From: Lachnospiraceae bacterium
Lineage (GTDB): Bacteria > Bacillota > Clostridia > Lachnospirales > Lachnospiraceae
Direction of reading: 5' to 3'
Length of the DNA: 39,719 nucleotides
Assembly: GCA_017621815.1 (NCBI GenBank)
Contig: JAGASK010000038.1
Span: 1-39,719, forward strand
Shown: positions 2,900-27,631 of the stretch, one piece after another
Layout of the letters: the number at the start of each line of letters is the position of its first letter
Numbering within the stretch: position 1 is the first letter of the stretch
Program-made: the position numbers and the translations under genes
Notes under the pieces: model-generated
What the model saw: only the letters and a program-made list of their open reading frames with translations
Told to the model about the DNA's origin: nothing
The model's database searches: none

Positions 2900-3700
2900 A
2901 TGTTTGGAATTTTTATGGAAAGTCTTGTCATATTCAAGCTTTATACCGGGCTGAAGCTGTTAATCGTGTTATTTGCTCTTTCCTGGATATATCTTCTGGT
3001 TACGGAAAAGGATAAAAGGGTAAGGCTTTTATTTGTCTGGGCGCCGCCACTTATTATACTTCTGTTTTTGTTCCCCATAAGCCGTAAGCTTTTTGTGGCG
3101 GCAGGGCTGGACGGAGAAACTTATTACCGGATTCTCTGGACGATTCCCATGGGCGTGATAACGGCTTATGCATCCTGCCGGCTCTTTAGCAGGCATAAAA
3201 GAATCGGACTCATAATTACTTCTGTACTTGTGATATTGTGCGGAAGTCTTGTGTACAAAAACGGATATATTTCCAAAGCGGAAAATCTTTATCATATCCC
3301 AAATACAGTAATCCGCATCTGCGATCTGATTGCACCGGAAGGCGAAAGCGGCCAGGCAATGGTGGTGGTTCCGGAGGAACTGGTATATTATGTGCGTCAG
3401 TACAATGCATCTATCCGTATGCCCTATGGCAGGGAAATGGTAGCCAGTCAGTGGGATTATTATAATGAGGTATACGAGGCAATGGAAGGTACGGAAATTA
3501 TTGACCTGGAAAAACTGCTGGAGGCCACAAGGAAGGAATACTGCCAGTATATTGTGATTAATCCTGTAAGACAGGTAAAGGGCGACCCGGAAAAGCTGGG
3601 ACTTCAGCTTCTTTCCACCATAGACGGCTATCGTGTTTATAAGGACCCTGTAGCTGCGGCAGAGGTGGAAAGCTGGGGACAGTATTATGAGGAAGATTGA
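2900..3700 (+). CDS. DUF6077-like membrane protein, C-terminal part
   Basis: This 266-residue protein has about four membrane helices in the first 120 residues, then a soluble domain of about 145 residues with 'VVVPEELVYYVRQYNASI' and 'MPYGREM'. It looks like the missing second half of the 1798-2886 product. AGGAGG at 2885-2890, nine bases before the ATG, argues that it is translated in its own right. The reading frame differs by +1 from the upstream gene, and this frame is closed by a TGA at 2870. Function is unknown; association with the GT-C enzyme at 263 is inferred from the operon. Confidence 0.6.
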   Translation: MFGIFMESLVIFKLYTGLKLLIVLFALSWIYLLVTEKDKRVRLLFVWAPPLIILLFLFPISRKLFVAAGLDGETYYRILWTIPMGVITAYASCRLFSRHKRIGLIITSVLVILCGSLVYKNGYISKAENLYHIPNTVIRICDLIAPEGESGQAMVVVPEELVYYVRQYNASIRMPYGREMVASQWDYYNEVYEAMEGTEIIDLEKLLEATRKEYCQYIVINPVRQVKGDPEKLGLQLLSTIDGYRVYKDPVAAAEVESWGQYYEED

Positions 3701-3737
3701 CCGGGTTCATGAGTTTATAAGGATGAGGACTGAATAA

Positions 3738-5150: not shown

Positions 5151-5177
5151 GGTAAAAGAAAAAGAATGGAGGATAAA

Positions 5178-11686: not shown

Positions 11687-12769
11687 ATGAGGACATATCT
11701 GGTAACAGGCGGAGCCGGGTTTATCGGTTCCAATTATATTCACTACATGTTTAAAAAATATGGCAATGAAATCAGAATTATTAACGTAGATGTGCTGACC
11801 TATGCAGGCAATCTGGAAAACTTAAAGGATGTGGAAAAAAGAGAAAATTACACTTTTATTAAGGCAGATATCTGCGATAAGGATGCTATTTCCAAAATTT
11901 TTGCAGAAAATGAAATTGACAGGGTGGTGCATTTTGCAGCGGAAAGCCATGTGGACAGAAGCATCAGGAATCCGGAAGTATTCGTACAGACTAATGTGCT
12001 GGGAACCGCAGTTATGCTGAACTGTGCCAAGGCAGCCTGGGAAAATCCTGACGGAAGCTTTAAGGAAGGGAAAAAGTTTCTGCATGTTTCCACAGATGAA
12101 GTTTACGGCTCATTGGAAGAGGACGGGGGATATTTCTATGAAACAACTCCTTATGCGCCCCACAGCCCCTATTCGGCAAGTAAGGCCAGTTCGGACATGC
12201 TGGTAAAGGCATATATGGACACCTATAAATTCCCTGCCAATATTACCAACTGCTCCAACAATTACGGGCCTTATCAGTTTCCGGAGAAATTCATTCCCCT
12301 GATGATTAACAATGCACTGCAGGGAAAGAAGCTTCCCGTTTATGGAGACGGAAAAAATGTCCGCGACTGGCTCTATGTGGAGGACCATGCCAAGGCCATT
12401 GATATGGTACAGGAAAAAGGACGCCTTTTTGAAACCTACAATGTAGGAGGACACAATGAAAAGCAGAATATCGAAATCCTGCATATTATCCTTGACACCT
12501 TAAGGGAAATGCTTCCTGATTCAGATGAAAGAAAGGCCCTTGTCAGTGATGATTTGATTACTTATGTGGAAGACCGTAAGGGACATGACAGAAGATATGC
12601 CATTGCGCCCGATAAAATTAAGGCAGAAATAGGCTGGGAGCCTGAGACCATGTTTAAAGAAGGCATCAAAAAGACCATTCAGTGGTATTTTGAAAACGAA
12701 GAGTGGATGAAAAATGCCACCAGCGGAGATTACCAGAAGTATTATGATGCAATGTACAAAAATGCATAA
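11687..12769 (+). CDS. rfbB (rmlB): dTDP-glucose 4,6-dehydratase
   Basis: This 360-residue enzyme converts dTDP-glucose to dTDP-4-keto-6-deoxyglucose, the second step to dTDP-L-rhamnose. It has the NAD-binding 'TGGAGFIG' at residues 7-14, 'STDEVYG' around the catalytic Thr-Asp-Glu, and the SDR pair Y162/K166 in 'YSASK'. 'RDWLYVEDH' is also typical. Length and motifs are complete. rmlA and rmlC follow; rmlD, for the final reduction, is not in the window. The order B-A-C is unusual only in that B comes first. Cytoplasmic. Confidence 0.96.
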   Translation: MRTYLVTGGAGFIGSNYIHYMFKKYGNEIRIINVDVLTYAGNLENLKDVEKRENYTFIKADICDKDAISKIFAENEIDRVVHFAAESHVDRSIRNPEVFVQTNVLGTAVMLNCAKAAWENPDGSFKEGKKFLHVSTDEVYGSLEEDGGYFYETTPYAPHSPYSASKASSDMLVKAYMDTYKFPANITNCSNNYGPYQFPEKFIPLMINNALQGKKLPVYGDGKNVRDWLYVEDHAKAIDMVQEKGRLFETYNVGGHNEKQNIEILHIILDTLREMLPDSDERKALVSDDLITYVEDRKGHDRRYAIAPDKIKAEIGWEPETMFKEGIKKTIQWYFENEEWMKNATSGDYQKYYDAMYKNA

Positions 12770-12813: not shown

Positions 12814-12840
12814 ATGAAATGTGAAAAAGAATGGGAGTGA
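12814..12840 (+). CDS. Eight-residue leader peptide candidate upstream of rmlA
   Basis: ATG-AAA-TGT-GAA-AAA-GAA-TGG-GAG-TGA encodes MKCEKEWE. A good ribosome site, GGGAGG (12803-12808), lies 5 bases upstream. The stop codon falls within the 5' arm of the terminator hairpin at 12830-12859, so a ribosome on this frame would cover and open the hairpin. This is the geometry of translation-dependent attenuation. It could be chance: the frame is very short and no run of one codon type points to a sensed amino acid. Confidence 0.4.
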
Positions 12841-12860
12841 TTTACAATCACTCCCATTTT
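12830..12860 (+). terminator. Strong hairpin terminator/attenuator before rmlA
   Basis: An almost perfect stem, AATGGGAGTGATT with AATCACTCCCATT around a 3-base loop, is followed by a short T run (TTTT then G). It would stop transcripts coming from rmlB. The -35 box of the next promoter begins in its loop. Confidence 0.75.
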
Positions 12861-12870
12861 GTGGTATACT
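12841..12870 (+). promoter_or_regulatory. Promoter for rmlA, overlapping the attenuator
   Basis: TTTACA (12841-12846) and TATACT (12865-12870) have 18 bp between them. The -35 lies at the tip of the terminator hairpin, so rmlA can be transcribed afresh where the rmlB transcript ends. The leader to the rmlA start is about 65 nt. Confidence 0.55.
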
Positions 12871-12940
12871 AATACAAGCTATGCTCATTGTTCTGGGCAT
12901 TGGTGTATTGAAACCAGTTAATAATTTGGAGGTATATGCA

Positions 12941-13810
12941 ATGAAGGGAATTATACTTGCGGGAGGATCCGGCACAAGGCTTTATCCGCTTACGAAGGCT
13001 ATCAGTAAACAGATTATGCCGGTTTATGACAAACCCATGATTTATTACCCGCTGTCAACACTGATGTTGGCAGGAATCAGGGAAATATTGATTATATCAA
13101 CGCCAAGGGATCTGCCTGTATTTGAGGAACTGCTGGGGGACGGAAGCCAGCTCGGCATGAAGTTTTCTTATGCGGTGCAGGAACAGCCAAGGGGCCTTGC
13201 GGATGCTTTCATTATCGGTGCGGATTTTATCGGAAAGGATTCCGTGGCACTGGTGCTTGGCGACAATATTTTTTACGGACAGAGTTTTTCTAAAGTGCTG
13301 CGTGAAGTGGCATCCAGGGAAAGCGGCGCTACCATATTCGGCTATTATGTCCGGGATCCCAGGGAATACGGCGTAGTGGAGTTTGATGAGACGGGAAAGG
13401 CTCTTTCCATAGAAGAAAAGCCGGAGCATCCAAAGAGCAATTATGCAGTTCCGGGACTTTATTTTTATGATAATGATGTGGTGGAAATTGCAAAAAATGT
13501 AAAACCTTCAGCAAGGGGCGAAATTGAGATTACCAGCATCAATAATGAATATTTAAGAAGGGGGACCCTGCGTGTGGAAACTCTGGGAAGAGGTTTCGCA
13601 TGGCTTGACACGGGAAACCATGATTCCCTTCTTGATGCGGCAGATTTTGTGGCGGCTTTCCAGAAAAGACAGGGGCTTTATATCTCCTGCATAGAGGAAA
13701 TTGCCTATAAGAGAGGCTTTATTGACAAAGAGCAGCTCCTGAAGCTGGCAGAGCCTTTGATGAAGACCAATTACGGCAAATATATGAAGGAAGTGGCGGA
13801 AGGATTATAA
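12941..13810 (+). CDS. rfbA (rmlA): Glucose-1-phosphate thymidylyltransferase
   Basis: This enzyme joins dTTP and glucose-1-phosphate to dTDP-glucose, the entry step to dTDP-rhamnose. The 289-residue protein has the nucleotidyltransferase signature '[11 protein letters not shown]' at residues 8-18, 'GDNIFYG' and '[19 protein letters not shown]'. The start is ATG 12941, with GGAGG at 12928-12932. An in-frame extension to 12821 is not used because it would run through the terminator and promoter. The length is normal. Its substrate could come from the phosphohexomutase at 23386. Expression is probably controlled separately from rmlB. Confidence 0.95.
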
Positions 13811-13828: not shown

Positions 13829-14395
13829 ATGGGAAAGATAACGGTAGAAACATGTGAAATAGAGGGGCTTAAGATAATAACCCCGACGGTTTTCGGGGAC
13901 TCCAGAGGTTACTTTGTGGAGACTTATAATTACAATGATTACAGGGAAGCAGGGATTGACCAGGTATTTGTACAGGACAACCAGTCTGCATCCGTAAAGA
14001 ATGTGCTGAGAGGCCTTCATTTCCAGATAAATTATCCCCAGGACAAGCTGGTAAGGGTAATTAACGGGGAAGTGTTTGACGTGGCAGTGGATTTACGTCC
14101 CGGTTCTGCAACCTATGGAAAATGGCACGGAGTAGTGCTTTCGGCAGAGAACAAGAAGCAGTTTTTCATTCCCAAGAACTTTGCCCATGGGTTTGTGGTA
14201 TTGTCCGATTATGCGGAGTTTGCATATAAGTGCACGGACTTTTACCATCCCAATGATGAGGGCGGGCTTAAGTTTGACGACCCCGATATCGGAGTGGAAT
14301 GGCCCGTTGCACCGGGAACTGAGCTTATCATGTCCGATAAGGATAAGAAATGGGGCGGAATTAAAGAATATACCCGGCGGATGCAGAAGAAGTAA
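13829..14395 (+). CDS. rfbC (rmlC): dTDP-4-dehydrorhamnose 3,5-epimerase
   Basis: This cupin enzyme performs the third step to dTDP-L-rhamnose. The 188-residue sequence has the catalytic His in 'RGLHFQ' (H64), the following 'DKLVRVINGEVFDVAVDLR', and 'GFVVLSDYAEFAYKCTDFY' split around the active-site Tyr region. 'VFGDSRGYFVETY' near the start is also diagnostic. Length and motifs are normal. It follows rmlA by 18 bases and has a purine-rich ribosome site (GGAAAGGAAG). Confidence 0.95.
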   Translation: MGKITVETCEIEGLKIITPTVFGDSRGYFVETYNYNDYREAGIDQVFVQDNQSASVKNVLRGLHFQINYPQDKLVRVINGEVFDVAVDLRPGSATYGKWHGVVLSAENKKQFFIPKNFAHGFVVLSDYAEFAYKCTDFYHPNDEGGLKFDDPDIGVEWPVAPGTELIMSDKDKKWGGIKEYTRRMQKK

Positions 14396-14444: not shown

Positions 14445-15503
14445 ATGAAAGAAAGAATGGTTAATGCGCAAATGGAAAGCAATAAGGAAAAAAGCAGATT
14501 GTCCTGGCTGAAAAAAATACCCAAGCCGGTTGGAATCGGCATATTTTATGCTATCTGCCTTTTGATGGCAGTGATAATTGTAATGCATCATAATCCGCTG
14601 GCACCGGACCAGCATACAGAAAACTTAAAAAAGTTCTGCGCCTGCGCACTGCTGACGCTGGCATGTATTATTTTCGGGGTATATTATGACCGGATGTTTA
14701 TTATTCCGAAGGAGTTGATTCAAAGCCGGGAGTTAATCTGGAAACTTTCTAAGAACGATTTTAAGAAACGTTATGCAGGTTCTTATCTGGGATTTTTGTG
14801 GGCGCTGGTACAGCCGGTGGTAACGGTATTAATGTACTGGATTGTTTTTGACGTGATTTTTGATACAAAAAGCGAAATGGTGGCAAGCGGTGTGGAGGTT
14901 CCCTATGTGCTGTTTCTGACAGCAGGACTGGTACCCTGGTTTTATTTTTCGGAGGCCATTACCAACGGAACTAATGCGCTGCTTGAGTACAGCTATCTTG
15001 TAAAAAAAGTGGTATTTAACATCAGTATACTGCCGATTATTAAGCTGATTGCAGCAACCTTTATCCATGTATTCTTTGTGGCGGTTCTGATTGTTATATC
15101 CATTGCATATGGCTATTATCCTACCTTATATACTTTACAGGTGATTTATTACAGCTTCTGCCTTTTTGTGCTGGTGCTGGCAATGAGTTATTGCACCTGT
15201 GCGATTGTGGTGTTTTTCAGGGATTTGGCTCAGATTATCAACATTGCCCTTCAGGTGGGGATGTGGGCTACGCCGATTCTCTGGAATATCGGAATGATTA
15301 CAGATGACCGTCTTGTTACCCTTGTAAAACTAAATCCGCTTGTTTATATTGTTAATGGATACAGGAATGCGATTTACGGAGACGAGTGGTTTTTTGAGCA
15401 TTTTTATTCCTCAACTTATTTCTGGATTTTTACGGTGACGCTGTTTTGTATCGGTTCACTGATTTTTAAGAGGTTAAAGGTACATTTTGCGGATGTATTG
15501 TAG
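14445..15503 (+). CDS. wzm: ABC-2 type polysaccharide exporter, permease
   Basis: The 352-residue membrane protein forms, with Wzt, the pore that exports lipid-linked polysaccharide. Residues about 30-85 form two extra N-terminal membrane helices, followed by the canonical Wzm domain of six helices with 'LSKNDFKKRYAGSYLGFLWA' at its start. Typical Wzm proteins have about 260 residues, so the N-terminal extension is additional, as is often seen in clostridial and actinobacterial teichoic/polysaccharide exporters. The start is uncertain: ATG 14445, 14457 and 14472 are all in frame and none has a strong ribosome site. The ATPase gene follows after 29 bases. Confidence 0.88.
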   Translation: MKERMVNAQMESNKEKSRLSWLKKIPKPVGIGIFYAICLLMAVIIVMHHNPLAPDQHTENLKKFCACALLTLACIIFGVYYDRMFIIPKELIQSRELIWKLSKNDFKKRYAGSYLGFLWALVQPVVTVLMYWIVFDVIFDTKSEMVASGVEVPYVLFLTAGLVPWFYFSEAITNGTNALLEYSYLVKKVVFNISILPIIKLIAATFIHVFFVAVLIVISIAYGYYPTLYTLQVIYYSFCLFVLVLAMSYCTCAIVVFFRDLAQIINIALQVGMWATPILWNIGMITDDRLVTLVKLNPLVYIVNGYRNAIYGDEWFFEHFYSSTYFWIFTVTLFCIGSLIFKRLKVHFADVL

Positions 15504-15532: not shown

Positions 15533-16927
15533 ATGGAAGATAAGACAGTTGCGATACAGGTGGATAAGCTTGAAAAGGCTTACAAGCTGTATGATAAGCC
15601 TTCTGACAGGCTGAAAGAAGCTCTGGGGCTTAGCAGAAACAAAAAATATAAGGAACATTATGCATTAAAGGGCGTGGATTTGACCATTTACCAGGGAGAA
15701 ACCGTGGGAATTATCGGCACCAATGGCTCCGGCAAATCCACAATTCTGAAAATCATTACCGGGGTTCTGAATCCTACCGGCGGTTCTGTGAAGGTAAACG
15801 GACGTATTTCAGCCCTGCTTGAGCTGGGTGCGGGTTTTAATATGGAATACAACGGCATTGAAAATATTTATCTGAACGGAACCATGATTGGCTTTTCCTC
15901 CAAAGAAATCGATGCGAAGATGGATGATATTTTAAGTTTTGCTGATATCGGGGACTATGTATATCAGCCGGTAAAAACTTATTCCAGCGGTATGTTTGTG
16001 CGGCTGGCTTTTGCTGTTGCCATCAATATTGAACCGGAGATTCTGATTGTGGATGAAGCCCTGTCGGTGGGCGACGTATTCTTCCAGGCAAAATGTTATC
16101 ATAAATTTGAAGAATTCAAGAAAATGGGTAAGACCATTGTTTTTGTCAGCCATGATTTAAGCAGCATCAGCAAATATTGTGACAGAGTAGTGCTGCTGAA
16201 CCAGGGGGTGAAGCTTGGGGAAGGAAGCCCCAAGGAAATGATAGATGCCTATAAGCAGGTTTTGGTGGGACAGTATACTGCCGGTGACGAGCAGGAAGAC
16301 AACCTTCTGAATGATAAAGAAATAGAAGCGGCAGCTGCCGCATCCTCAGGCAGAAAGAACACTGCAGAAAAAGAGAAGGAAAAGGGAAAAGAAACTGCGG
16401 ATGCAAAGACCCTGAAAAACGCAGATGCAGGACAGGCAGCGGAGCGGAATGCAAATGTGGTGAACCCTGATTTACTGGAATACGGAACCAGGGCCGCTGT
16501 CATAGAAGATTATAAAATAACAGATGATATGGGAAGAAGTACCAGCGCTGTATTAAAAGGACAGGAATGCAGTATTCATATGAAGGTACGCTTTTTTGAG
16601 GATATTGAAGCTCCTATTTTTGCTTTTACCATTAAAAATATAAAAGGTGTGGAAATTACAGGAACAAATACAATGGTGGAAAAAGCATTTCTGGAATCTG
16701 TAAAGGCAGGAAGTGTAATGGATATCACTTTTTCTCAGATTGTAAATCTGCAGGGCGGGGAATATCTTTTATCATTAGGTGTTACCGGCTTTGAAAAGGA
16801 AGAGTTTCAGGTATATCACAGGCTTTATGATGTGCTGAATATGACAGTGATTTCCGATAAGAATACGGTGGGATATTATGACATGAATTCCAGAATTTCT
16901 GTAAAAAGGGAAGGAAAACAGTTATGA
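15533..16927 (+). CDS. wzt: ABC transporter ATPase with C-terminal carbohydrate-binding domain
   Basis: The ATPase powers Wzm. Residues 1-245 are the nucleotide-binding domain: Walker A 'GTNGSGKST' at about 62, signature 'YSSGM' at about 151, Walker B 'ILIVDEALS' at about 170. A low-complexity Ala/Lys/Glu linker spans about 255-310. Residues about 315-464 form a beta-rich domain similar to Wzt C-terminal domains, which in E. coli O8/O9a bind the modified chain end before export. The stop overlaps the next start by 4 bases (ATGA), giving tight coupling to the methyltransferase-kinase-like protein, a candidate producer of the bound end group. Confidence 0.9.
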   Translation: MEDKTVAIQVDKLEKAYKLYDKPSDRLKEALGLSRNKKYKEHYALKGVDLTIYQGETVGIIGTNGSGKSTILKIITGVLNPTGGSVKVNGRISALLELGAGFNMEYNGIENIYLNGTMIGFSSKEIDAKMDDILSFADIGDYVYQPVKTYSSGMFVRLAFAVAINIEPEILIVDEALSVGDVFFQAKCYHKFEEFKKMGKTIVFVSHDLSSISKYCDRVVLLNQGVKLGEGSPKEMIDAYKQVLVGQYTAGDEQEDNLLNDKEIEAAAAASSGRKNTAEKEKEKGKETADAKTLKNADAGQAAERNANVVNPDLLEYGTRAAVIEDYKITDDMGRSTSAVLKGQECSIHMKVRFFEDIEAPIFAFTIKNIKGVEITGTNTMVEKAFLESVKAGSVMDITFSQIVNLQGGEYLLSLGVTGFEKEEFQVYHRLYDVLNMTVISDKNTVGYYDMNSRISVKREGKQL

Positions 16928-19029
16928 GTGAAAAGGGAAGGCCCGGGGAGCCTCTTTATTTAAAACAGGAAGATTTAATCAGCAGGCTGCCGGAGAAAAT
17001 CGGAAAGGTTTCTCTTGATTATAAGCACTATCCCGGTGAAGACCTTTACAGCGACGGGAGCATTGAGGATGAGATTCTTTCTATTGTAAAAGAGGCATCA
17101 GCCTTTGAATATCCTGAAATCATTGAGAAAAGGGGCAGCTGGCCTGTTCTTTATCATCTTTCTCCGCTGCGGGCTAATATTGTGGACTGGCTTCCAATCG
17201 ACAAGAACCATAAAGTTCTGGAAATCGGTTCGGGCTGCGGCGTCATTACGGAAAAGCTGTCGGAGAAGGCAGGGGAAGTGACCTGTGTGGATCTTTCGGC
17301 GAAAAGAAGCCACATTAATGCATACCGGAATCAGGACAAGGACAATATAACCATTCATGTGGGAAATTTCAGCGATATTGAGCCGGAGCTTCCCGCAGAT
17401 TACGATTATGTGTGCCTGATTGGCGTCTTTGAATATGGACAATCCTATATTCATTCAAAAACCCCCTATGAAGATTTTATGAAAATCATGTTAAGACATG
17501 TAAAGGATGGAGGGCGTCTTGTAATTGCCATAGAAAACAAGATGGGCCTGAAATATTTTGCAGGCTGCAAGGAAGACCATGTGGGAACTTACTTCAGCGG
17601 ACTGGAGGGATATCCTGATGGTGGAAGCGCCAGAACTTTTACAAGAACAGGTCTGGAAAGAATTATGGCTTCCTGCGAAGTTAAGGATTATTCCTTTTAT
17701 TATCCTTATCCTGATTATAAATTCCCTACGGTGATATATTCTGACAGAAGGCTTCCGCTTCCCGGTGAACTTACAAATAACATGCGTAATTTTGACCGTG
17801 ACAGAATGGTGCTTTTTAACGAAAAATATGTTTTTGACGGAATTATAAAGGATAATCTTTTTCCTGTGTTTTCTAATTCCTATATGGTGGTTATCGGCAA
17901 GGAGCCTGACATTATTTATGCCAAGTATTCCAATGACAGGGCACAGCAGTATGCGCTGCGTACCGAGATAGTGGAGACTTCTTCAGGAAAAGTCATCAGG
18001 AAAATCCCTTCTTCAAAAGAGGCGCAGGAACATATTGCAAGAATGGAACGTTCCTATCAGCTTTTGCTTGGCAGATATGAAGGAAGCGGACTGAAGATTA
18101 ATCCATGCAGGCTGGCGGAGGATAAAAGCTATGTGGAATTTCCCTTTGAAAAGGGAAGAACCCTGGAAGAGCTGCTTGACGAATGCCTTGAAAAAGATGA
18201 TATGGATGAGTTTTACAGACTGTTTGATAAGTATTATTCTTTTATTTCCTACGGTTCAGATTCCGGAGCCGCTGATTATGACCTGATATTTGCCAACATT
18301 CTGGTGGATGGAGATGACTGGACCGTTATTGATTATGAATGGACGGTGGAAGAACAGGTGGCGCCGGAAGAAATTGCATTCCGCGCAGTGTACTGTTATG
18401 TCCTGGAGGAAGAGAAAAGAAATAAATTAAATTTTGATTTGATAATCAGTAAGCTCGGCATTTCCGCCAGGGATGCCGATGAGTACAGGGAAAAAGAGTT
18501 TAAATTCCAAAAGAAGGTAACGGGAAAAAGAAAATCCATGGGGGAAATCAGGGCGGCTATCGGTACTTACGCAGTGGATCCCAGGATATTAATGGAACAG
18601 CACCTTCAGGAAATACTGAATAAAAGAATACAGATTTATCTTGACAAGGGCAGGGGATTTTCCGAAGAAGATTCCTATTATATGCCCGATGTTTATACCG
18701 ATGAATACACTATTGAGGCGGAAATTCCCTTTGACGGGAATGTATGTGCACTGCGAATAGACCCGGCAGACAGATTCTGCATTGTTAAAATTAAAGAACT
18801 GTCAGTCAACGGGGAAACAGTGCCGGTTTCTAAAAAAACTGTTATTACTAACGGAAAAAATGTAAAAAACGGTACTTATGTATTTGCTACAAAGGATCCT
18901 AATCTTACAGTGAATGTATCCCTGCTTCCGAGACAGGGAGAAAATATATTATCGGTAAAACTGGAGCTTTCTCCTTTGCAGGAGGAGATTGCAGGGGATA
19001 TTGCGGAAGGTGTAAAACGTTTATTTTAA
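16924..19029 (+). CDS. Fused methyltransferase and kinase-like protein, possible chain terminator (WbdD-like)
   Basis: Residues about 60-300 of 701 are a class I SAM methyltransferase with motif I 'VLEIGSGCGVITEKL' at about 98-112 and an acidic 'VDLS' following. Residues about 340-540 resemble a protein-kinase/APH fold: lysine K360 in 'VIRKIP', helix Glu E375, hinge-like 'YVEFPFEKGRTLEELL', catalytic-loop-like D453-L-I-F-A-N458, and metal-site-like D470 in 'VIDYEW'. Residues about 590-701 are beta-rich. The same methyltransferase plus kinase order is known in WbdD, which caps E. coli O9a chains. The four-base overlap with wzt strengthens the parallel. The kinase reading is my own motif alignment; a plain methyltransferase with an unrelated second domain remains possible. 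Confidence 0.7.
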   Translation: MSEKGRPGEPLYLKQEDLISRLPEKIGKVSLDYKHYPGEDLYSDGSIEDEILSIVKEASAFEYPEIIEKRGSWPVLYHLSPLRANIVDWLPIDKNHKVLEIGSGCGVITEKLSEKAGEVTCVDLSAKRSHINAYRNQDKDNITIHVGNFSDIEPELPADYDYVCLIGVFEYGQSYIHSKTPYEDFMKIMLRHVKDGGRLVIAIENKMGLKYFAGCKEDHVGTYFSGLEGYPDGGSARTFTRTGLERIMASCEVKDYSFYYPYPDYKFPTVIYSDRRLPLPGELTNNMRNFDRDRMVLFNEKYVFDGIIKDNLFPVFSNSYMVVIGKEPDIIYAKYSNDRAQQYALRTEIVETSSGKVIRKIPSSKEAQEHIARMERSYQLLLGRYEGSGLKINPCRLAEDKSYVEFPFEKGRTLEELLDECLEKDDMDEFYRLFDKYYSFISYGSDSGAADYDLIFANILVDGDDWTVIDYEWTVEEQVAPEEIAFRAVYCYVLEEEKRNKLNFDLIISKLGISARDADEYREKEFKFQKKVTGKRKSMGEIRAAIGTYAVDPRILMEQHLQEILNKRIQIYLDKGRGFSEEDSYYMPDVYTDEYTIEAEIPFDGNVCALRIDPADRFCIVKIKELSVNGETVPVSKKTVITNGKNVKNGTYVFATKDPNLTVNVSLLPRQGENILSVKLELSPLQEEIAGDIAEGVKRLF

Positions 19030-19054: not shown

Positions 19055-21280
19055 GTGGCTTCTTTAAAACACGGCATCAAGCAGATGCTTATTAATAAAC
19101 AGCATAAGATGTACGAAAAGAAGGTTTTAGAGAAGAAGATGTCTTATGCTGTCTGGATTGAAAAACAGGAAGATAGGATAGAAATTGATAATATTCTTGC
19201 CAGGGAAACAACAAAATGTCTGACAAATGATTTTTTGGATGACGCAAATGGCAGTGAAATAAGAAAAAATGAAGGATTCCATTCAAAAAATGAATTCCCT
19301 TGTCGAAATTTCGTTGTTTATGAAGAAGAAAGCAGAAATACGAAGAAGGTTACTTTTTGTATGCCTTTCTGCGGTAATTTTAACGCAGATGACTGGAAAG
19401 GGTTTTTGGATAATTTAAAAGAATGTGATGATGACATTATTTTACTGGCTCCTTTTCAGGGAGAATTATCAAAAAAATGTCTGCTGTTATTATATCGGGA
19501 ATTTGTGCAGCATGAAAATACAATCATGATTTACGGAGATGAAGATATTATAACCGGCGGGCAAAGAGAAAAGCCATGGTTCAAGCCTGACTGGTCACCG
19601 GATACTTTTCTTTCCTGTTATTATTTAGGGAGCCTTACAGCCGTAAGAACAAAAGCCTTAAAGGAATTTTTGCGGGAGCGAAAAGAAGAAATCGGCAGCC
19701 TTTACGAATTGTGCTATTGTTTTCTGGAAAAGTACGGAGGTTTTTCAAGGGAAACGCTGACGGGGAGCAGCCCTGTCTGTCATATACCGGAAGTATTGTT
19801 TCATGGAGAGCAGGAAGGCTATGGGAGGATTAAAGACTGGAAGCTGTCCGGGGAGGTTTTGAAAGGCTTTCAGCAGAAATATGTGCAGGAAGCCGCCCGG
19901 GAATCTGACCGGAGCAAAGAGGCTTTGATTTCCGTTATTATTCCCTCCAAGGATAATCCGGAGGTTTTATTTCATTGCATTTATTCGCTGATTGAGAGAA
20001 CGCAGGCCGGCTGTTCTTATGAAATCAGGATTGTGGATAACGGAAGCAGTGAGCATAACAGGACGCAAATCAGCAAAGAAATAGAAGAGCTTAATCAGGC
20101 TGCGGAAAAGGGAAACGGTTGTGAAGGGATTTATTACCATTATGAGCCTATGACCTTTAATTTTTCCCGTATGTGTAATATTGGCGCCGGGGAAGCCCGG
20201 GGAGAGCTTTTACTGTTCTTAAATGATGATATGGAAATTATTCAGCCGGACTGGCTTGCGCAGCTTTCGGAAAAAGCGCTTCTGCCTTATGCAGGGGCGG
20301 TGGGAGCAAAGCTTTTGTATCCGGATTCTGCCGTGATTCAGCATGCAGGAATTACCAATTTGAGAGTGGGACCGGCTCATAAGCTGCAGTTCCTTTCCGA
20401 TGAGCAGAATCATTATTACGGGAAAAACCGGGGTGTCCATGATATACTGGCAGTAACCGGGGCGTGTCTGATGGTAAGAAAAGACGTATTTGAGCAGGCA
20501 GGAGGCTTTTCAGAAGAACTGGCAGTAGCCTTTAATGATGTGGATTTATGTTATACCATTTATGAGACGGGTTATTATAATATAGTAAGAAATGATGTGA
20601 CTTTGTATCATCATGAGTCCTTAAGCAGAGGGAAGGACGGGGAATCTGAAGAAAAACAGCTGAGACTTTTAAAAGAAAAGGATATTCTGTATGAGAGACA
20701 TCAGGATATATATGGCAAGGACCCGTTTTACCATAAGTATCTTACAACGGATATGCTGGAATCAGAATATTCACCTGCATTCCGGTATCAGGTAACACTG
20801 GATATGCCATGGGCTGAAGTCACTGCCGAAGGGGCGCTCCCCGAAAATATAAAAGAAGATGCCTGCGTGGTAATCGGCATGGAATGCGCCATGGATATTT
20901 ATAAATGGAAATACGGAGTGGCTCCGGAAAAAGGAAAGGTGAAGCAAAAGTCTTCCGATATGGGATATTATTTCCAGGGGTATTCTTTTGTGATTGGCGC
21001 AGATAACGCATGTTATAAAAAGACCCTTATTTTACAGAACAAAGAGAATCTGCAGGTAATAAAGGTTCCTGTGGATGACAGATACAGGCAGGACATTAAA
21101 AATAATTTAAAAGACCAGTTAAATGTAGATTTAACCGGGTTTGCGGCTAAAGTGCAGCTCGAAAGTATTCCTGAGGGGATTTACCGGTTCGGCATGCTGG
21201 CGGAGGACAGATGTTCCAGACAGAAACTGGTAAATTTCAGCAGCTGGGTTTTGAAGGTGGAAAGAAGACCGGAAGTTTAA
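19055..21280 (+). CDS. Large GT2 glycosyltransferase, first GT-A domain degenerate
   Basis: This 741-residue cytoplasmic protein starts at GTG 19055 with GAGAGGA 7 bases upstream. Residues about 105-270 look like a GT-A domain that lost its nucleotide-binding opening but keeps 'YGDED' (160-164) and 'FKPDWSPDTF'. Residues about 290-540 are a complete family 2 domain: 'SVIIPSKDN', 'DNGSS', 'FLNDDMEI', 'QHAG' and 'FNDVDLCY'. The final 150 residues are beta-rich and unassigned. Such enzymes commonly add rhamnose or other sugars to wall polysaccharides. It lies 25 bases after the methyltransferase-kinase gene. Donor and linkage cannot be inferred. Confidence 0.85.
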   Translation: MASLKHGIKQMLINKQHKMYEKKVLEKKMSYAVWIEKQEDRIEIDNILARETTKCLTNDFLDDANGSEIRKNEGFHSKNEFPCRNFVVYEEESRNTKKVTFCMPFCGNFNADDWKGFLDNLKECDDDIILLAPFQGELSKKCLLLLYREFVQHENTIMIYGDEDIITGGQREKPWFKPDWSPDTFLSCYYLGSLTAVRTKALKEFLRERKEEIGSLYELCYCFLEKYGGFSRETLTGSSPVCHIPEVLFHGEQEGYGRIKDWKLSGEVLKGFQQKYVQEAARESDRSKEALISVIIPSKDNPEVLFHCIYSLIERTQAGCSYEIRIVDNGSSEHNRTQISKEIEELNQAAEKGNGCEGIYYHYEPMTFNFSRMCNIGAGEARGELLLFLNDDMEIIQPDWLAQLSEKALLPYAGAVGAKLLYPDSAVIQHAGITNLRVGPAHKLQFLSDEQNHYYGKNRGVHDILAVTGACLMVRKDVFEQAGGFSEELAVAFNDVDLCYTIYETGYYNIVRNDVTLYHHESLSRGKDGESEEKQLRLLKEKDILYERHQDIYGKDPFYHKYLTTDMLESEYSPAFRYQVTLDMPWAEVTAEGALPENIKEDACVVIGMECAMDIYKWKYGVAPEKGKVKQKSSDMGYYFQGYSFVIGADNACYKKTLILQNKENLQVIKVPVDDRYRQDIKNNLKDQLNVDLTGFAAKVQLESIPEGIYRFGMLAEDRCSRQKLVNFSSWVLKVERRPEV

Positions 21281-21293: not shown

Positions 21294-23273
21294 ATGGGAA
21301 CAAATCAGGAAAATTATGATTATAAGGAAGCATATGAAAAGGAGCATATAAAAACTGCGGATTTGGCAGAAAGAGTAGCCGTTCTTGAGGCTAAAAATGA
21401 AGAATTGACTTTCAAACTGAACAGGATTAAAAACAATCCCCTGTGGAAGCTTTCTTCTCCTTTAAGAAAATGTATGCACTTTGTAATCAGGCAGAGGGAC
21501 AGGGTTAAAAACTGCGGAAATCTCCGCGGTGTGATTGCAAAATTGAAATATAAAAAGATTGAGCGGCAGGCTATGGAAAATTACGGAACCAGAAGCTTTC
21601 CTGATGAGGCAGGGGTTTCGGAGGAAAGAAACACGGTTTTTGACAGAATGGTAAAAATCAGTATTCTTGTGCCTCTTTATAATACGCCTGAAAACTTCCT
21701 GCGGGAAATGATTGAATCTGTTTTAAATCAGACTTATGAAAACTGGGAGCTGTGTCTTGCGGACGGCTCGGATGGTGAGCATGGTTTTGTGGGGGATATC
21801 TGCCGGGATTATGCGGATAAGGATGAAAGACAGAGAATTGTTTATAAGAATCTTGACAGAAATGAGGGCATTTCGGGAAATACCAACGAATGCTTAAAGC
21901 TTGCTACAGGGGAATTTATCGGTTTGTTTGACCATGATGATATTCTTCATCCAAGCGCCTTATATGAATATGTAAAAGTCATCAATGAGCAGAATGCGGA
22001 TTACATATATTGCGATGAAACCACTTTTAAAAGCGGTGATATCAACAAAATGCTGACCATGCATTTTAAGCCGGACTATGCAGTGGATAATCTTCGGGCT
22101 AATAATTACATCTGCCATTTCAGCGTATTTGCAAGGGAACTTTTGGACGGAACGGAATTATTCCGTTCAAAGTTTGACGGCAGTCAGGATCATGATATGA
22201 TTTTAAGGCTGACGGACCGTGCAAAAAATGTGGTGCATGTGCCGAGGCTTCTTTATTACTGGCGTTCCCATGCGGGAAGTGTGGCTTCGGGAATAGATGC
22301 CAAGCCATATGCGGTAGAAGCGGCAAAGGGAGCGGTGGCAGACCATTTAAGAAGGCATGGTTTTACTCATTTTCAGATTACTTCCACCAGGGCCTTTGAA
22401 ACCATATTTAAAATCAGGTATCAGATTATGGGCGAGCCTTTCATTTCCATTGTAATTGCAAACAAAGACCACCTGCAGGATTTACAGAGATGTATTTCTT
22501 CCATTATGGAAAAATCCACTTATGAAAATTATGAAATCATTGTGGTGGAAAACGGCAGCGAAACAAAGGAAATCTTTGATTATTATGAAAAGCTGAAGGA
22601 TTATTCCAATGTGAAGGTAGTTACTTATGAAAACAAAGGAAAGTTTAATTATTCGGCGGTAAATAATTTCGGTGTAAAGCAGGCTCAGGGCGATTATATT
22701 CTGCTTCTCAATAATGACACAGAGGTAATTACCGTAAACTGGATGGAAGAGCTTTTGATGTATGCTCAGCGGGATGATGTGGGAGCAGTGGGAGCCAAGC
22801 TTTATTACGGTAACAAGACCATACAGCATGCGGGAGTGGTTTTGGGTCTTGGAGCCCACAGAACGGCAGGGCACAGCCATTACGGACAGCACAGGGAGAA
22901 TCTGGGCTATATGGGAAGGCTCTGTTATGCTCAGGATGTGTCGGCGGTAACGGGAGCATGCCTTCTGGTGAAAAAATCCCTGTTTGAAGAAGTGGGAGGG
23001 CTGGAGGAAGGCTTTGCCATTTCCCTGAATGATGTGGATTTCTGCTTAAAGCTGCGGGAAAAAGGGCTTTTGAATGTATTTACGCCCTTTGCGGAGCTGT
23101 ATCATTTCGAATCTCTTTCACGGGGGCTTGATGACCGGGGAGAAAAGGCGGAGCGCTACAATGAGGAGTCCGCTGCTTTCCGCAAAAAGTGGAAAAAAGT
23201 TCTGGAAAAAGGGGATCCTTATTATAATCCTAACTTTTCTCTGGATAGAAGTGACTTTGCTTTGAAAATATAG
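21294..23273 (+). CDS. Bifunctional GT2 glycosyltransferase with two GT-A domains
   Basis: Residues about 10-50 of this 659-residue protein form a coiled coil. Domain 1 starts at about residue 120 ('KISILVPLYNTPENF') and carries 'DHDDILHPSALYEY' near 215 as its metal/nucleotide site. Domain 2 starts at about 381 ('FISIVIANKDH') with 'LLNNDTEV' near 470, 'QHAGVVLG' and 'SLNDVDFC' near 577. Both domains look complete, so the enzyme could add two sugars or one repeating disaccharide. AAGGGAG lies 8 bases before the ATG, 13 bases after the previous stop. Close paralogues are its neighbours at 19055 and 25226, each of which keeps only one good domain. Confidence 0.9.
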   Translation: MGTNQENYDYKEAYEKEHIKTADLAERVAVLEAKNEELTFKLNRIKNNPLWKLSSPLRKCMHFVIRQRDRVKNCGNLRGVIAKLKYKKIERQAMENYGTRSFPDEAGVSEERNTVFDRMVKISILVPLYNTPENFLREMIESVLNQTYENWELCLADGSDGEHGFVGDICRDYADKDERQRIVYKNLDRNEGISGNTNECLKLATGEFIGLFDHDDILHPSALYEYVKVINEQNADYIYCDETTFKSGDINKMLTMHFKPDYAVDNLRANNYICHFSVFARELLDGTELFRSKFDGSQDHDMILRLTDRAKNVVHVPRLLYYWRSHAGSVASGIDAKPYAVEAAKGAVADHLRRHGFTHFQITSTRAFETIFKIRYQIMGEPFISIVIANKDHLQDLQRCISSIMEKSTYENYEIIVVENGSETKEIFDYYEKLKDYSNVKVVTYENKGKFNYSAVNNFGVKQAQGDYILLLNNDTEVITVNWMEELLMYAQRDDVGAVGAKLYYGNKTIQHAGVVLGLGAHRTAGHSHYGQHRENLGYMGRLCYAQDVSAVTGACLLVKKSLFEEVGGLEEGFAISLNDVDFCLKLREKGLLNVFTPFAELYHFESLSRGLDDRGEKAERYNEESAAFRKKWKKVLEKGDPYYNPNFSLDRSDFALKI

Positions 23274-23385: not shown

Positions 23386-25107
23386 ATGAGTTACAAAGAG
23401 CAGTATGATTTTTGGTTGAATGATTCTTATTTCGACGAATTGACCAAGGAAGAACTTCGCAGCATAGCGGGAGACGAGAAGGAAATAGAAGACCGTTTTT
23501 ATAAGGAATTGGAATTCGGTACCGGCGGGCTGCGCGGTGTGATTGGAGCAGGAACCAACCGCATGAATACATATACAGTAAGAAAAGCAACTCAGGGACT
23601 TGCTAACTACATTATTAAGCAGGGCGGCAAGGACAGAGGAGTGGCCATTGCCTATGACTCCAGAAGAAAATCACCGGAATTTGCAGATGAAGCGGCTTTG
23701 TGTCTTGCAGCAAACGGCATCAAGGCTTATGTATTTGATGCACTTCGTCCCACACCGGAGCTTTCCTTTGCGCTTCGTACCTTAAACTGCATTTCAGGTA
23801 TTGTTATAACAGCAAGCCATAATCCTCCGGAATATAACGGGTATAAGGCATATTGGGAAGACGGCGCGCAGGTAACCGCGCCTAAGGATAAAGAGATTAT
23901 CACAGAGGTTAAGAATGTAACCGATTATCATGAAGTGAAGACCATGTCCAAAGAAGATGCCATGGCGGCCGGGCTTTATCAGGTAATCGGAAAAGAAATC
24001 GATGACGCTTACATGGCAGAATTAAAGAAGCAGATTATTCATCCGGAAATTATTAAAGAAGTTGCTGATGATATTAAGATTGTTTATTCTCCTTTCCACG
24101 GAACCGGCAACGTACCTGTAAGAAGAATTTTGTCAGAGCTTGGCTTTAAGCATGTGTATGTTGTTCCTGAGCAGGAACTTCCGGATCCTGATTTCACCAC
24201 ACTGGAATATCCGAATCCCGAAGATCCCAAGGCATTCACCCTTGCCCTTAAGCTGGCAAAGGAAAAGAATGCGGACATTGTACTTGCAACTGACCCCGAT
24301 GCAGACCGGCTCGGTATTTATGCACTTGATACAAAGAGCGGCGAATATGTACCTTTCACCGGAAATATGTCAGGTATGCTGATTGCGGAGTATATTCTCC
24401 GTGAAAGAACACAGACTAAGACCATGCCTGAAAATCCCGCACTGGTTACTACTATTGTTACAACCAATATGGCAGGCGCCATTGCAAGAGATTATAATGT
24501 TAAATTTATTGAAGTTTTAACAGGTTTCAAATTTATCGGTGAACAGATTAAGCTTTTTGAGCAGACCGGCTCTAACAATTATGTATTCGGTCTGGAAGAA
24601 AGCTACGGATGCCTTGCAGGAACACATGCAAGGGATAAGGATGCTGTAGTAGCGGTTATGTGCCTTTGCGAAGTTGCTGCATGGTGCAAGAAGAACGGCA
24701 TTACTGTTTGGGATCAGATGCTGAAGCTTTATGAAAAGTACGGATATTTCAAGGAAACACAGTATGCAATTACATTAAAGGGCATTGACGGTGCAGCGCA
24801 GATTACCGAAATGATGAACAAATTAAGAAGCAATCCTCCTAAAAACTTTGGTGAGCTGACAGTTAAGGAATTCAGGGATTACGATAAGGATGTTGCCATC
24901 AATCTGGAAACAGGCGAAAAGAAGAGCACAGGTCTTCCTAAATCAAATGTACTTTATTTTGATTTATCAAATGATTCCTGGTGCTGTGCAAGACCTTCGG
25001 GAACAGAGCCCAAGATTAAATTCTATATGGGCGTAAAGGGAACAAGCCTTGAAGACGCACAGGCAAAGGTGGAGAAGCTTACAGAAGATTTGAAGGCTTA
25101 TCTGTAG
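23386..25107 (+). CDS. Alpha-D-phosphohexomutase (phosphoglucomutase/phosphomannomutase)
   Basis: This 573-residue cytoplasmic enzyme interconverts hexose 6- and 1-phosphates and so feeds glucose-1-phosphate to RmlA. It has the phosphoserine loop 'TASHNP' with S144, the metal loop 'DPDADR' (D303, D305, D307), the sugar loop 'EESYG', and the phosphate-binding 'RPSGTEPKIKFY' near the end. Length matches the firmicute PgcA-type group. AGGAGGA precedes the ATG. It has its own promoter and is followed by a hairpin, so it is probably expressed independently within the glycan locus. Confidence 0.93.
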   Translation: MSYKEQYDFWLNDSYFDELTKEELRSIAGDEKEIEDRFYKELEFGTGGLRGVIGAGTNRMNTYTVRKATQGLANYIIKQGGKDRGVAIAYDSRRKSPEFADEAALCLAANGIKAYVFDALRPTPELSFALRTLNCISGIVITASHNPPEYNGYKAYWEDGAQVTAPKDKEIITEVKNVTDYHEVKTMSKEDAMAAGLYQVIGKEIDDAYMAELKKQIIHPEIIKEVADDIKIVYSPFHGTGNVPVRRILSELGFKHVYVVPEQELPDPDFTTLEYPNPEDPKAFTLALKLAKEKNADIVLATDPDADRLGIYALDTKSGEYVPFTGNMSGMLIAEYILRERTQTKTMPENPALVTTIVTTNMAGAIARDYNVKFIEVLTGFKFIGEQIKLFEQTGSNNYVFGLEESYGCLAGTHARDKDAVVAVMCLCEVAAWCKKNGITVWDQMLKLYEKYGYFKETQYAITLKGIDGAAQITEMMNKLRSNPPKNFGELTVKEFRDYDKDVAINLETGEKKSTGLPKSNVLYFDLSNDSWCCARPSGTEPKIKFYMGVKGTSLEDAQAKVEKLTEDLKAYL

Positions 25108-25159: not shown

Positions 25160-25198
25160 CAGCAGACAGTACAAACTCAGGCAGTGTACTGTCTGTTG
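25160..25198 (+). terminator. Long hairpin after the phosphohexomutase gene
   Basis: CAGCAGACAGTACA (25160-25173) pairs with TGTACTGTCTGTTG (25185-25198) with one mismatch around an 11-base loop. The tail is only moderately T-rich (TTGGTTT), so termination may be partial. Confidence 0.55.
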
Positions 25199-25225
25199 TT
25201 GGTTTCCGGCAAAGCGGAGAATGAA

Positions 25226-26608
25226 ATGAGCGGGATTTTTAAGCTAGTTAATCTCAAAAAAACAATACATTATCTTAAAAAGAACGGTATCCGTCAGGCA
25301 TATTATGCTGCAAGGGAGCGTGTAGAAGAACAGCAGCATGACAGCTATGTTTATGAAGCTCCTTCTGAGGAGGAATTGCAAAAACAGAGGGAGGCGGGAA
25401 AAGCTTTTTCCTGTAAATTCAGCATTCTGGTGCCTTTGTATGAAACTGCTGAAGCGTATCTTCGGGAAATGGTGGATTCTGTTTTAAATCAGACTTATGG
25501 TAATTTCGAACTGATTCTGGCAGATGCCAGTCCATCTGATAATGTAGAAAAGATTATAAAAACATATGACGATAAGCGGATTTTTTACAGAAGGCTGAAA
25601 CAAAACGGAGGTATTGCAGCCAATACCAATCAGGCGCTTATGTATGCCACGGGAGATTATGCTGCCCTGCTTGATCATGATGACATATTGACTGCGGATG
25701 CACTTTATGAAATGGCTTCCTGTATCGAAAATATATGGAAAGACGATTTTGAATTACAGATGTTATATTCTGATGAGGATAAATGCAACAGCAATGGAAG
25801 CCTGTTCTATGAAGTAAACAGGAAACCTGAATTAAATCTTGATTTAATTTTATCCAATAATTATATTTGCCACTTTCTGGTAATGAAACGTCAGCTGATG
25901 CAGGAACTGCAGCTGAGAAGCGTCTGTGACGGCGCCCAGGATTTCGATTTGGTGCTGAGGGCAATTAATCAAATGCTGGGGAAGGATAAAAAGAGGAACA
26001 GAATCAAGGAAGTGCCGGTCGCTCATGTACCCAAAGTGCTTTATCACTGGAGATGTCATGAAGCCTCTACAGCGGAGAATCCGGAAAGCAAGAAATATGC
26101 TTATGATGCAGGAAAAAGGGCAGTAGAGGATTTTCTCCGGGCAAGAGAGTGGAAAGGGCAGGTATCTCATATCAGGCATCTTGGCTTTTATCGTGTGGAT
26201 TATCAGCCGGATTTGCTTTCCAACAGACCGGATGTGGCATTGGTCGGCGGAAGGCTGATTGATAAACATAATAAAATAACAGGTGGTATATATAATGCCC
26301 GTGGAGAACGGATTTATAAGGGGCTGCATAAGGAATACAGCGGATATATGCACCGTGCATCTTTGCAGCAGGAAGCGGAGATGATCGATATACGATGCAT
26401 GCTGGCTTCTAAAGAAGCTGAAGAAATACTGGAAGAAATGACAGGGCTTCCTTATCTCAGGAATCCGAAAAACGGACGTTTTAACTGGAGAGACAGTCTG
26501 AAAGCAGATGTGGATTATGTGGAAATCAGCAGAAAATTGTGTGAAAAGGTCAGAGAGCTGGGGATGCGGATTGTCTGGGACCCTGTGTTAACGGAAAGAA
26601 TTGACTGA
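25226..26608 (+). CDS. GT2 glycosyltransferase, second GT-A domain truncated
   Basis: About 460 residues. Residues 60-320 are a family 2 GT-A domain: 'FSILVPLYE', 'GGIAANTNQAL', 'DHDDIL' near 150, 'LSNNYICHF' and 'VLYHWRCHEAST'. It is a clear paralogue of domain 1 of the enzyme at 21294. The last 120 residues, from 'VALVGGRLIDK', match the latter part of domain 2 of that enzyme, but the roughly 110-residue nucleotide-binding half is missing. ATG 25226 is chosen, with GGAG 6 bases upstream, over a GTG at 25184 that sits inside the hairpin. Likely adds one sugar; the tail may be structural. Confidence 0.85.
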   Translation: MSGIFKLVNLKKTIHYLKKNGIRQAYYAARERVEEQQHDSYVYEAPSEEELQKQREAGKAFSCKFSILVPLYETAEAYLREMVDSVLNQTYGNFELILADASPSDNVEKIIKTYDDKRIFYRRLKQNGGIAANTNQALMYATGDYAALLDHDDILTADALYEMASCIENIWKDDFELQMLYSDEDKCNSNGSLFYEVNRKPELNLDLILSNNYICHFLVMKRQLMQELQLRSVCDGAQDFDLVLRAINQMLGKDKKRNRIKEVPVAHVPKVLYHWRCHEASTAENPESKKYAYDAGKRAVEDFLRAREWKGQVSHIRHLGFYRVDYQPDLLSNRPDVALVGGRLIDKHNKITGGIYNARGERIYKGLHKEYSGYMHRASLQQEAEMIDIRCMLASKEAEEILEEMTGLPYLRNPKNGRFNWRDSLKADVDYVEISRKLCEKVRELGMRIVWDPVLTERID

Positions 26609-26632
26609 AATCATTTTAAGAGGATTTTGAAA

Positions 26633-27631
26633 TTGGAAAATTATGGCCGGAATGAGGAAAGAAGCTGCCGGACAACGGTGGTGATTCCGAATTATAATGG
26701 AATGAATTATATAGAGAACTGTCTGGATTCTTTGTTTCGGGGAAGCCGGATACCTGCAGTAATCGTGGTGGACAATGGCTCTTCTGATGGGAGCTGCGAG
26801 CTTGTCAGGGACAAGTATCCCCAGGTGAAGCTTATTACACTTAGAGAAAATACAGGCTTTTGCCATGCCGTAAATGTGGGAATTGAAGAGACGGAAACGG
26901 AATTTGTCTTTTTGCTGAACAACGATACAGCCGTAGAGGAAAATTGTGTGGAAGAACTGGAAAAGGTAATGGAAAATTCTCACAGTTTTTTTTCAGCAGG
27001 GGCAAAAATGATAAATATGAAATTTCCGGAGAAAATAGATGATGCGGGAGATTTTTACTGCGCTCTCGGCTGGGCGTTTGCAAGAGGAAAGGATAAGCCG
27101 GCGGCGAATTATCAAAAAGGCGGACGGATTTTTGCAGCCTGCGGAGGCGCCGCACTATACAGAACATCACTTCTTCGGGAAGCGGGAATGTTTGATGAAG
27201 AGCATTTCGCTTATTTGGAGGATATTGATATAGGATACCGGGCTAACATTATGGGATACCGGAATGTGTTTGCCCCGGAAGCTGTGGTGTATCATGCCGG
27301 AAGCGGCGTCAGCGGTTCAAGACATAATGCATTTAAAGTGGATTTATCTTCCAGAAACAGTATTTACCTTGTTTATAAAAATATGCCTTTTTTACAGATT
27401 TTGATTAATCTGCCTTTTTTACTTGCGGGTTTTCTTGTTAAATATCTCTTTTTTATTAAAAAGGGAATGGGAGCCGTATATGCAAAAGGAATTCTTAAGG
27501 GGGTTAAGCTATCCTTTTCCGAAAAGGGAAGAAAAAAGAAGGTTGCGTTTAAAATAAGAAGACTTCCTTATTATCTTTGGATACAATGGGAATTGTGGTT
27601 CAGTATCCTGCGGAGAGTGCTTCTTTTTTAA
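26633..27631 (+). CDS. GT2 glycosyltransferase, rhamnosyl/galactofuranosyl type
   Basis: The 332-residue protein has a GT-A domain: 'VVIPNYNG' at about 16, 'VVDNGSSDG', 'LLNNDT' at about 93, 'GGAALYR' and 'EDIDIGYR' at about 196. Residues about 240-265 are hydrophobic, and the tail is basic, suggesting membrane attachment. The family includes rhamnosyl- and galactofuranosyltransferases that act on lipid-linked glycans. The start is TTG 26633: AAGAGGA at 26618-26624 is 8 bases from it, but only 2 from the in-frame TTG at 26627. It lies 24 bases after the previous gene. Confidence 0.85.
   Translation: MENYGRNEERSCRTTVVIPNYNGMNYIENCLDSLFRGSRIPAVIVVDNGSSDGSCELVRDKYPQVKLITLRENTGFCHAVNVGIEETETEFVFLLNNDTAVEENCVEELEKVMENSHSFFSAGAKMINMKFPEKIDDAGDFYCALGWAFARGKDKPAANYQKGGRIFAACGGAALYRTSLLREAGMFDEEHFAYLEDIDIGYRANIMGYRNVFAPEAVVYHAGSGVSGSRHNAFKVDLSSRNSIYLVYKNMPFLQILINLPFLLAGFLVKYLFFIKKGMGAVYAKGILKGVKLSFSEKGRKKKVAFKIRRLPYYLWIQWELWFSILRRVLLF

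Follow-up and report, generated by a model that had tools for sequence, protein, structure and literature searches.

A putative methylphosphate chain terminator beside a Wzt exporter with a predicted cap-binding domain in a Lachnospiraceae cluster for a probable rhamnose-containing polymer

A stretch of 39,719 nucleotides from a Lachnospiraceae bacterium (contig JAGASK010000038.1 of assembly GCA_017621815.1; the whole stretch is hereafter the window) encodes a Wzt export ATPase with an additional C-terminal domain and, directly after it, a 701-residue protein in which a methyltransferase is followed by a kinase fold. We call this protein MTK, for methyltransferase-kinase, and think it probable that it ends the chains of a rhamnose-containing polymer with methylphosphate, a cap that Wzt would read before export. 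The evidence comprises domain content, predicted folds, conserved catalytic residues, gene order, co-occurrence across genomes and homology to Gram-negative proteins that combine methyltransferase, kinase and glycosyltransferase (GT). Cap-licensed export by ATP-binding cassette (ABC) transporters is a known type of mechanism, and in a Gram-positive it has already been proposed, with methyl caps, for the surface-layer glycans of Geobacillus stearothermophilus (PMC2943079). An earlier sequence-only reading of the window had suggested a firmicute form of cap-dependent export. Its main idea survives, and the novelty narrows to the phosphate-cap version: within the sources searched, what is new is that Gram-positive clusters have a terminator with a kinase, one that is separate from the polymerase and lacks a coiled-coil ruler. 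Among the papers listed in searches of open-access PMC, none dealt with a methyltransferase-kinase terminator in a Gram-positive or with the Trp/Arg difference in Wzt_C described below, and we make no claim beyond open-access papers.

All features discussed lie on the forward (+) strand. Within MTK (16924..19029), the methyltransferase domain spans residues 22-327 (16987..17904), with Pfam methyltransferase families matching around residues 90-208 (best E 1.3e-9). The S-adenosylmethionine (SAM) motif VLEIGSGCG, at residues 98-106 (17215..17241), the 701-residue open reading frame (ORF) and its 4-base overlap with wzt are all where the sequence-only reading had put them. The next domain, residues 328 to about 547 (17905..18564), matches no kinase family in Pfam, NCBIfam or PHROGs, and Pfam gave no kinase match in any member of the MTK family scanned. 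A predicted structure of residues 317-701 shows a kinase fold followed by a beta domain, and residues 317-547 modelled alone give the kinase fold that had been suspected there. A profile of the kinase part drew 13 weak PDB sequence matches (best E 0.012), of which 11 are protein kinases; we take them as supportive only. For the whole MTK model the top Foldseek match was 4azt (WbdD); the matches listed by VIA were methyltransferases only and did not include WbdD, a result without weight against WbdD.

Conservation was counted in an alignment of 88 kinase-domain rows. K360 is kept in 87 (one gap), D453 in 70 (17 gaps, one X), N458 in 72 (16 gaps) and D470 in 71 (17 gaps), and we regard D453-x4-N458 and D470 (18280..18333) as the putative catalytic and metal residues. 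These had been picked out from the sequence together with E375, which is Glu in just 14 of the 88 rows and was dropped as a candidate alpha-C glutamate. H370 (18031-18033), ten residues past the invariant K360, is His in all 87 ungapped rows, with one gap; we know of no conserved His at the equivalent position of protein kinases. The C-terminal beta domain (residues 566-686, 18619..18981) was predicted in two models, with a predicted local distance difference test score (pLDDT) of about 90 in one, and was absent from those other window proteins that were compared. By analogy with the immunoglobulin (Ig)-like carbohydrate-binding module (CBM) of the Klebsiella protein ORF6-O7, it is possibly a glycan-binding module (PMC11231755).

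The nearest known relative of MTK appears to be the Klebsiella pneumoniae O7 type of terminator, of which it would be a variant without a coiled coil, and not WbdD of Escherichia coli. ORF6 of K. pneumoniae O7 contains a methyltransferase, an unannotated kinase, the Ig-like CBM, a coiled coil and two GT2 modules; it adds 3-O-methylphosphate to terminal rhamnose, the substitution D441A abolished phosphorylation, and in vitro the phosphate was methylated only partly (PMC11231755). Its authors place relatives in cyanobacteria, an archaeon and the alpha- and gammaproteobacteria; the terms 'gram-positive' and 'firmicutes' are absent from the text. A tblastn search of plasmids with MTK returned three records, and the comparison with ORF6-O7 was made through a Pseudomonas asturiensis plasmid protein as proxy. 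This protein of 1457 residues, with a methyltransferase and two GT2 domains by Pfam, is encoded directly after a Wzt with Wzt_C. Its hhalign alignment with MTK covers residues 41-628 of MTK, reaching across the kinase into the beta domain (prob 100, E 2.2e-42). All six published methyltransferase residues of ORF6-O7 stand at identical numbers in the Pseudomonas protein and map to Y42, Y77, G102, G104, D123 and Y171 of MTK, and D453-x4-N458 aligns to D443-x4-N448 (the catalytic Asp of ORF6-O7 is D441). As in ORF6-O7, the methyltransferase of MTK is followed by a kinase unrecognised by Pfam, and then by a predicted beta domain at the place of the Ig-like module, with equivalents, via the proxy, of the named SAM residues and catalytic Asp; rhamnose is a further likeness, in the window presumed from the rml genes. 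Unlike ORF6-O7, a single protein holding a coiled-coil ruler and both GT2 modules, the terminator and GTs of the window are separate, there is no long coil and the host is Gram-positive. The 659-residue GT2-GT2 protein of the window is 40% identical over 549 residues to the C-terminal part of the Pseudomonas protein; because MTK is homologous to that same protein, the window has as separate genes what Pseudomonas has as one. On a Citrobacter plasmid the order is rfbBACD-type genes, a transposase, Wzm, Wzt with Wzt_C and then a 649-residue terminator.

The sequence-only reading had taken WbdD as its model. WbdD of E. coli O9a (PMC3482155; E. coli HS locus L111) does share with MTK its methyltransferase-kinase domain order, the top structural match and the gene order, and the O9a Wzt has the same R-x-Y-D motif as the Wzt_C of the window. 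Unlike WbdD, which acts on a mannose polymer, MTK has no coiled coil and no His-His pair, and its kinase gave no sequence match in the one comparison made: hhalign of the MTK kinase profile against a single WbdD sequence gave prob 0.6 and E 0.098, with only the methyltransferase aligning. We rejected WbdD as closest relative on this comparison of the kinase and on the replacement of His-His by Glu-Tyr; it appears to be a more distant parallel than ORF6-O7. The Geobacillus system resembles the window in its Gram-positive host, rhamnose polymer, terminal cap and predicted cap reading by Wzt, and its wzm-wzt-wsaE overlap can be likened to the gene overlap described here (PMC2943079). WsaE, however, is methyl-only and kinase-free, with its methyltransferase fused to two GTs (PMC2943079), whereas MTK has a kinase fold. 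Nor is the window of the WsaE type in its Wzt_C, which has Arg at the Trp position and falls in another part of the tree; at the WsaE-like methyltransferase-GT2-GT4 loci L149 and L163, Wzt_C has the cap Trp.

The Wzt protein (464 residues, 15533..16927; PF00005, E 5.1e-23) follows the Wzm permease (14445..15503; PF01061, E 2.5e-14). The extra C-terminal domain noticed from the sequence is Wzt_C, a putative cap-binding domain (PF14524, residues 316-451, 16478..16885; E 1.4e-40, 139 bits against a cut-off of 30.4). Aquifex aeolicus WzmWzt is the best PDB match of the window Wzt. The profile of the Wzt_C family matches best 2r5o, the C-terminal domain of E. coli O9a Wzt (E 1.4e-12), then Aquifex (1.1e-7) and 5hno (0.009), which we take to be the O12 domain. 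In Aquifex, Trp362 stacks on the 3-O-methyl of the cap (PMC9445017); the window Wzt has Arg at the aligned position, within R430-x-Y432-D433 (16820..16831). Domains from terminator loci have this Arg in 91 of 92 cases, and His in the other.

The residue at the cap position appears to track what the terminator contains, and to depend less on phylum or on the type of kinase. E. coli O9 and O99, whose terminators include a kinase, have Wzt 'LDRRYD', and the methyltransferase-only O8 and strain PE15 have 'NYEW' (the PE15 and O99 terminators being classed by domain content only). Among 40 Wzt rows, R-x-Y-D occurs in nine, all beside a methyltransferase and a kinase (one kinase by motif only), and Trp in another nine; the other 22 have Tyr (13), Phe (5), Arg in 'RLID' (2), Ile (1) or His (1). 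Pfam recognised no kinase among 12 neighbouring proteins of the nine Trp loci. A methyltransferase is present at seven of them, and the scanned proteins at the other two, L148 and L161, are GTs or sugar-nucleotide enzymes only. A kinase was recognised in one of the 31 rows without R-x-Y-D. At L156, a locus selected by its Wzt_C and not by a terminator, the motif led to a neighbouring methyltransferase (hhalign prob 98.7) and a 546-residue protein that has D-x4-N and ends much like the beta domain, although that alignment is weak (prob 2); by its motif this neighbour is likely a kinase. In a tree of 46 domains, 15 R-x-Y-D rows and eight labelled Trp rows fall on opposite sides of supported branches (97/93 each), and E. 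coli rows stand in both groups among Bacillota. L161, a Trp row labelled 'other' in the tree, lies outside the Trp group. Each group is perhaps of one origin, so that the motif is a marker and not a set of independent inventions.

More broadly, we suggest that a Wzt_C code across phyla, Trp for a methyl cap and R-x-Y-D for methylphosphate, predicts terminator chemistry, and that a methylphosphate-cap cassette is common to Gram-negative surface polysaccharides and, within the window's Gram-positive family, to roughly one in two sampled genomes, the latter exporting a capped polymer without a coiled-coil ruler; in this extension our confidence is evenly divided. A third group of 18 Wzt_C domains has neither motif (L091-L100, L150, L151, L154, L155, L157, L159, L160 and L164, from the window's family and other Bacillota). 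This class is gapped at the motif column in one alignment and Tyr or Phe in others, so that we make no residue claim for it. By hidden Markov model (HMM), a methyltransferase-like neighbour was found in 8 of the 18 and a recognised kinase in none. Near the third-group Wzt of L160, a 547-residue protein (2435-4078) without a Pfam match ends in a terminator-type beta domain (hhalign prob 75), and is perhaps another kind of terminator.

The association between terminator and Wzt_C extends across genomes. All 35 relatives with upstream sequence keep the order Wzm, Wzt with its domain, terminator, GT; the 36th begins at a contig edge. Of 250 genomes of the window's family, 130 have the terminator profile, 149 have PF14524 and 126 have both. 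Among the matches listed (121 genomes), 101 have Wzt_C 0-700 bases upstream of the terminator and 13 have it elsewhere on that contig and strand, while in 7 no Wzt_C shares the terminator's contig and strand. The co-occurrence that the sequence-only reading proposed to survey also holds at 105 neighbourhoods: the first ATPase upstream carries the domain in 88 and lacks it in 2, not the equal frequencies that would have told against the idea, and such an ATPase was not seen in 15, at least 4 of which are artefacts of the assignment rule. The sequence-only reading had also proposed translational coupling. This fits the ATGA stop/start overlap at 16924..16927, with a purine-rich stretch immediately 5' of it, but the exact 4-base overlap recurs in only 8 of 88 loci, an overlap or a gap of at most 100 bases being found in 75.

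Methyltransferase and kinase share one ORF in 80 of the 105 loci, three of them with GTs in the fusion as well. In 23 they are neighbouring ORFs, of which seven have the kinase joined to GTs, and two were left unassigned by the HMM rule. At L033 (4889-8530, a metagenome-assembled genome), Wzt, the cap-binding domain and the whole methyltransferase-kinase form one ORF of 1213 residues, either a natural fusion or a stop lost in assembly. As the Wzt-methyltransferase, methyltransferase-kinase and kinase-GT junctions are each fused somewhere, the arrangement would fit a physical complex. Beyond the family, 398 genomes drawn from the phylum contained the terminator in 12, four in the window's family (the window's genome included) and eight spread over seven other families. 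Three records filed as 'Bacteriophage sp.' from human stool (MT839147.1, MT836085.1 and MT836982.1) encode the terminator at 39-57% identity, and are perhaps bacterial contigs filed as phage.

We envisage a lipid-linked, rhamnose-containing polymer made in the cytoplasm and exported only once capped. The GT2 enzymes of 659 and 741 residues would extend the chain, and MTK would bind its non-reducing end. The kinase domain would then phosphorylate the terminal sugar, presumably rhamnose, by means of D453, N458 and D470, and the methyltransferase domain would methylate that terminal phosphate. The resulting methylphosphate would halt elongation. Finally, Wzt_C would bind it through a pocket containing R430-x-Y-D and so license Wzm/Wzt to flip the chain.

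An alternative is that the cap is methyl only, the methyltransferase acting on a sugar hydroxyl as in E. coli O8 and Geobacillus WsaE, and the kinase-fold domain being inactive or structural. The Gram-positive precedent is of this kind (PMC2943079), the methyltransferase is sometimes its own ORF, and His132-His133 of WbdD, needed for phosphate methylation, align to E170-Y171 of MTK, the Pseudomonas relative sharing the Tyr. We nevertheless consider it unlikely. The catalytic D, N and D are kept in ungapped rows (one X), D-x4-N occurs in Gram-negative relatives, and the kinase follows the methyltransferase even when the two are split; Wzt_C has R-x-Y-D in place of the methyl-cap Trp and sits in another part of the tree, and the kinase of the Klebsiella relative is active and was killed by D441A (PMC11231755). 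A phosphate-only or otherwise phosphorylated cap, with the kinase acting on the polymer and the methyltransferase on another sugar or position, would suit the partial methylation by ORF6-O7 in vitro (PMC11231755), yet MTK aligns with ORF6-type enzymes through both domains, catalytic positions matching in each, and we rate such a cap as quite improbable. Least probable, to a degree that makes it remote, is that MTK is no terminator but acts on residues within the polymer, or on one of its lipid or wall intermediates, and stands beside Wzt by operon inheritance only. The missing ruler speaks for this, as does a paralogue in the same genome that is fused to LicD and has no Wzt among the ORFs examined around it; against it are the presence of Wzt_C in 126 of 130 terminator genomes, the agreement of the cap-position motif with kinase presence, and the same gene order in E. 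coli O9 and on two Gram-negative plasmids. The paralogue (L070, 7052-9589 on contig C44) is a second homologue, of 845 residues, in another glycan cluster; its SAM loop is altered, and the LicD domain stands at its C terminus.

Several observations weigh against a methylphosphate terminator, beginning with the Glu-Tyr replacement just described. Klebsiella and E. coli terminators have a coiled coil (PMC11231755), whereas the MTK models show none, with no helix longer than 19 residues after residue 500, and a crude heptad score of MTK is low. Because this ruler is missing from MTK, the length control proposed in the sequence-only reading is unsupported. The 659-residue GT was tried as a ruler, but its heptad-like start scores 0.45, equal to a stretch inside the methyltransferase, and we claim no ruler. 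Neither the Pseudomonas nor the Citrobacter protein has a Lys aligned to K360, and the Citrobacter one has Glu in place of D470. L136, the one row with a recognised kinase and without R-x-Y-D, has a methyltransferase-kinase pair beside 'CHVYD' (His at the cap position) and lies, on a very long branch, inside the Trp side of the tree. On the R-x-Y-D side, L152, L153 ('HRLID') and L165 have no recognised kinase; at L152 and L153, GTs adjoin Wzt, and no methyltransferase or kinase was recognised within the ORFs examined. Four genomes of the family have the terminator and no Wzt_C, the ATPase beside the pair at L089 and L139 lacks the domain, and at L101 an ATPase of this kind lies downstream. Within the window's family, moreover, the cassette is a single inheritance, so the counts from these relatives are not independent events.

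Lachnospiraceae are common in the gut, and to our knowledge their surface polymers have been little studied. If the terminator reading is right, polymer chains in a large part of the family carry a methylphosphate end that is checked before export, and the end group, the enzymes and the exporter are directly testable. Cap chemistry could then be predicted from the Wzt_C motif, whatever the phylum, and there would be a function for a kinase unrecognised by Pfam. It would also have to be asked how length is set when the known ruler, the coiled coil, is missing.

The surrounding genes indicate the likely polymer. Rhamnose genes adjoin the Wzt/MTK pair, which suits the rhamnan-type polymer of the sequence-only reading: an rmlB-like gene (11687..12769; a presumed dTDP-glucose 4,6-dehydratase, which would supply the rhamnose precursor), an rmlA-like gene (12821..13810, start possibly 12938) and an rmlC-like gene (13829..14395), named by sequence resemblance. 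The short-chain dehydrogenase/reductase at 11687..12769 scores below the rmlD cut-off, and rmlD is above cut-off elsewhere in the genome. Upstream homologues occur in relatives for rmlA in 34 of 36 (the other two begin at a contig edge), rmlC in 35 and rmlB in 32. Downstream of MTK follow the GT2-domain protein of 741 residues (19055..21280, by Pfam; the next gene in 36 of 36 loci), the 659-residue GT2-GT2 polymerase candidate with its short heptad-like N terminus (21294..23273, Pfam), a presumed phosphoglucomutase-like enzyme (23386..25107; homologue in most relatives' flanks), two further GT2 proteins (25184..26608 and 26627..27631, both by Pfam) and a polyprenyl-phosphate glycosyl-1-phosphate transferase for initiation (27684..29093; TIGR03023, 512.5 bits against a cut-off of 410.75). 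A presumed LytR-CpsA-Psr-like protein (29268..30413) is a possible wall ligase, and the product is likely a wall-linked rhamnose polymer. Just upstream of the cluster, an 876-residue protein (8989-11619) has a very acidic N terminus and Pro/Thr repeats, and its C-terminal stretch we take to resemble GH25 lysozyme. Two genes at 3738-6275 presumably encode an MBOAT-like acyltransferase and a partner, and possibly acylate a surface polymer.

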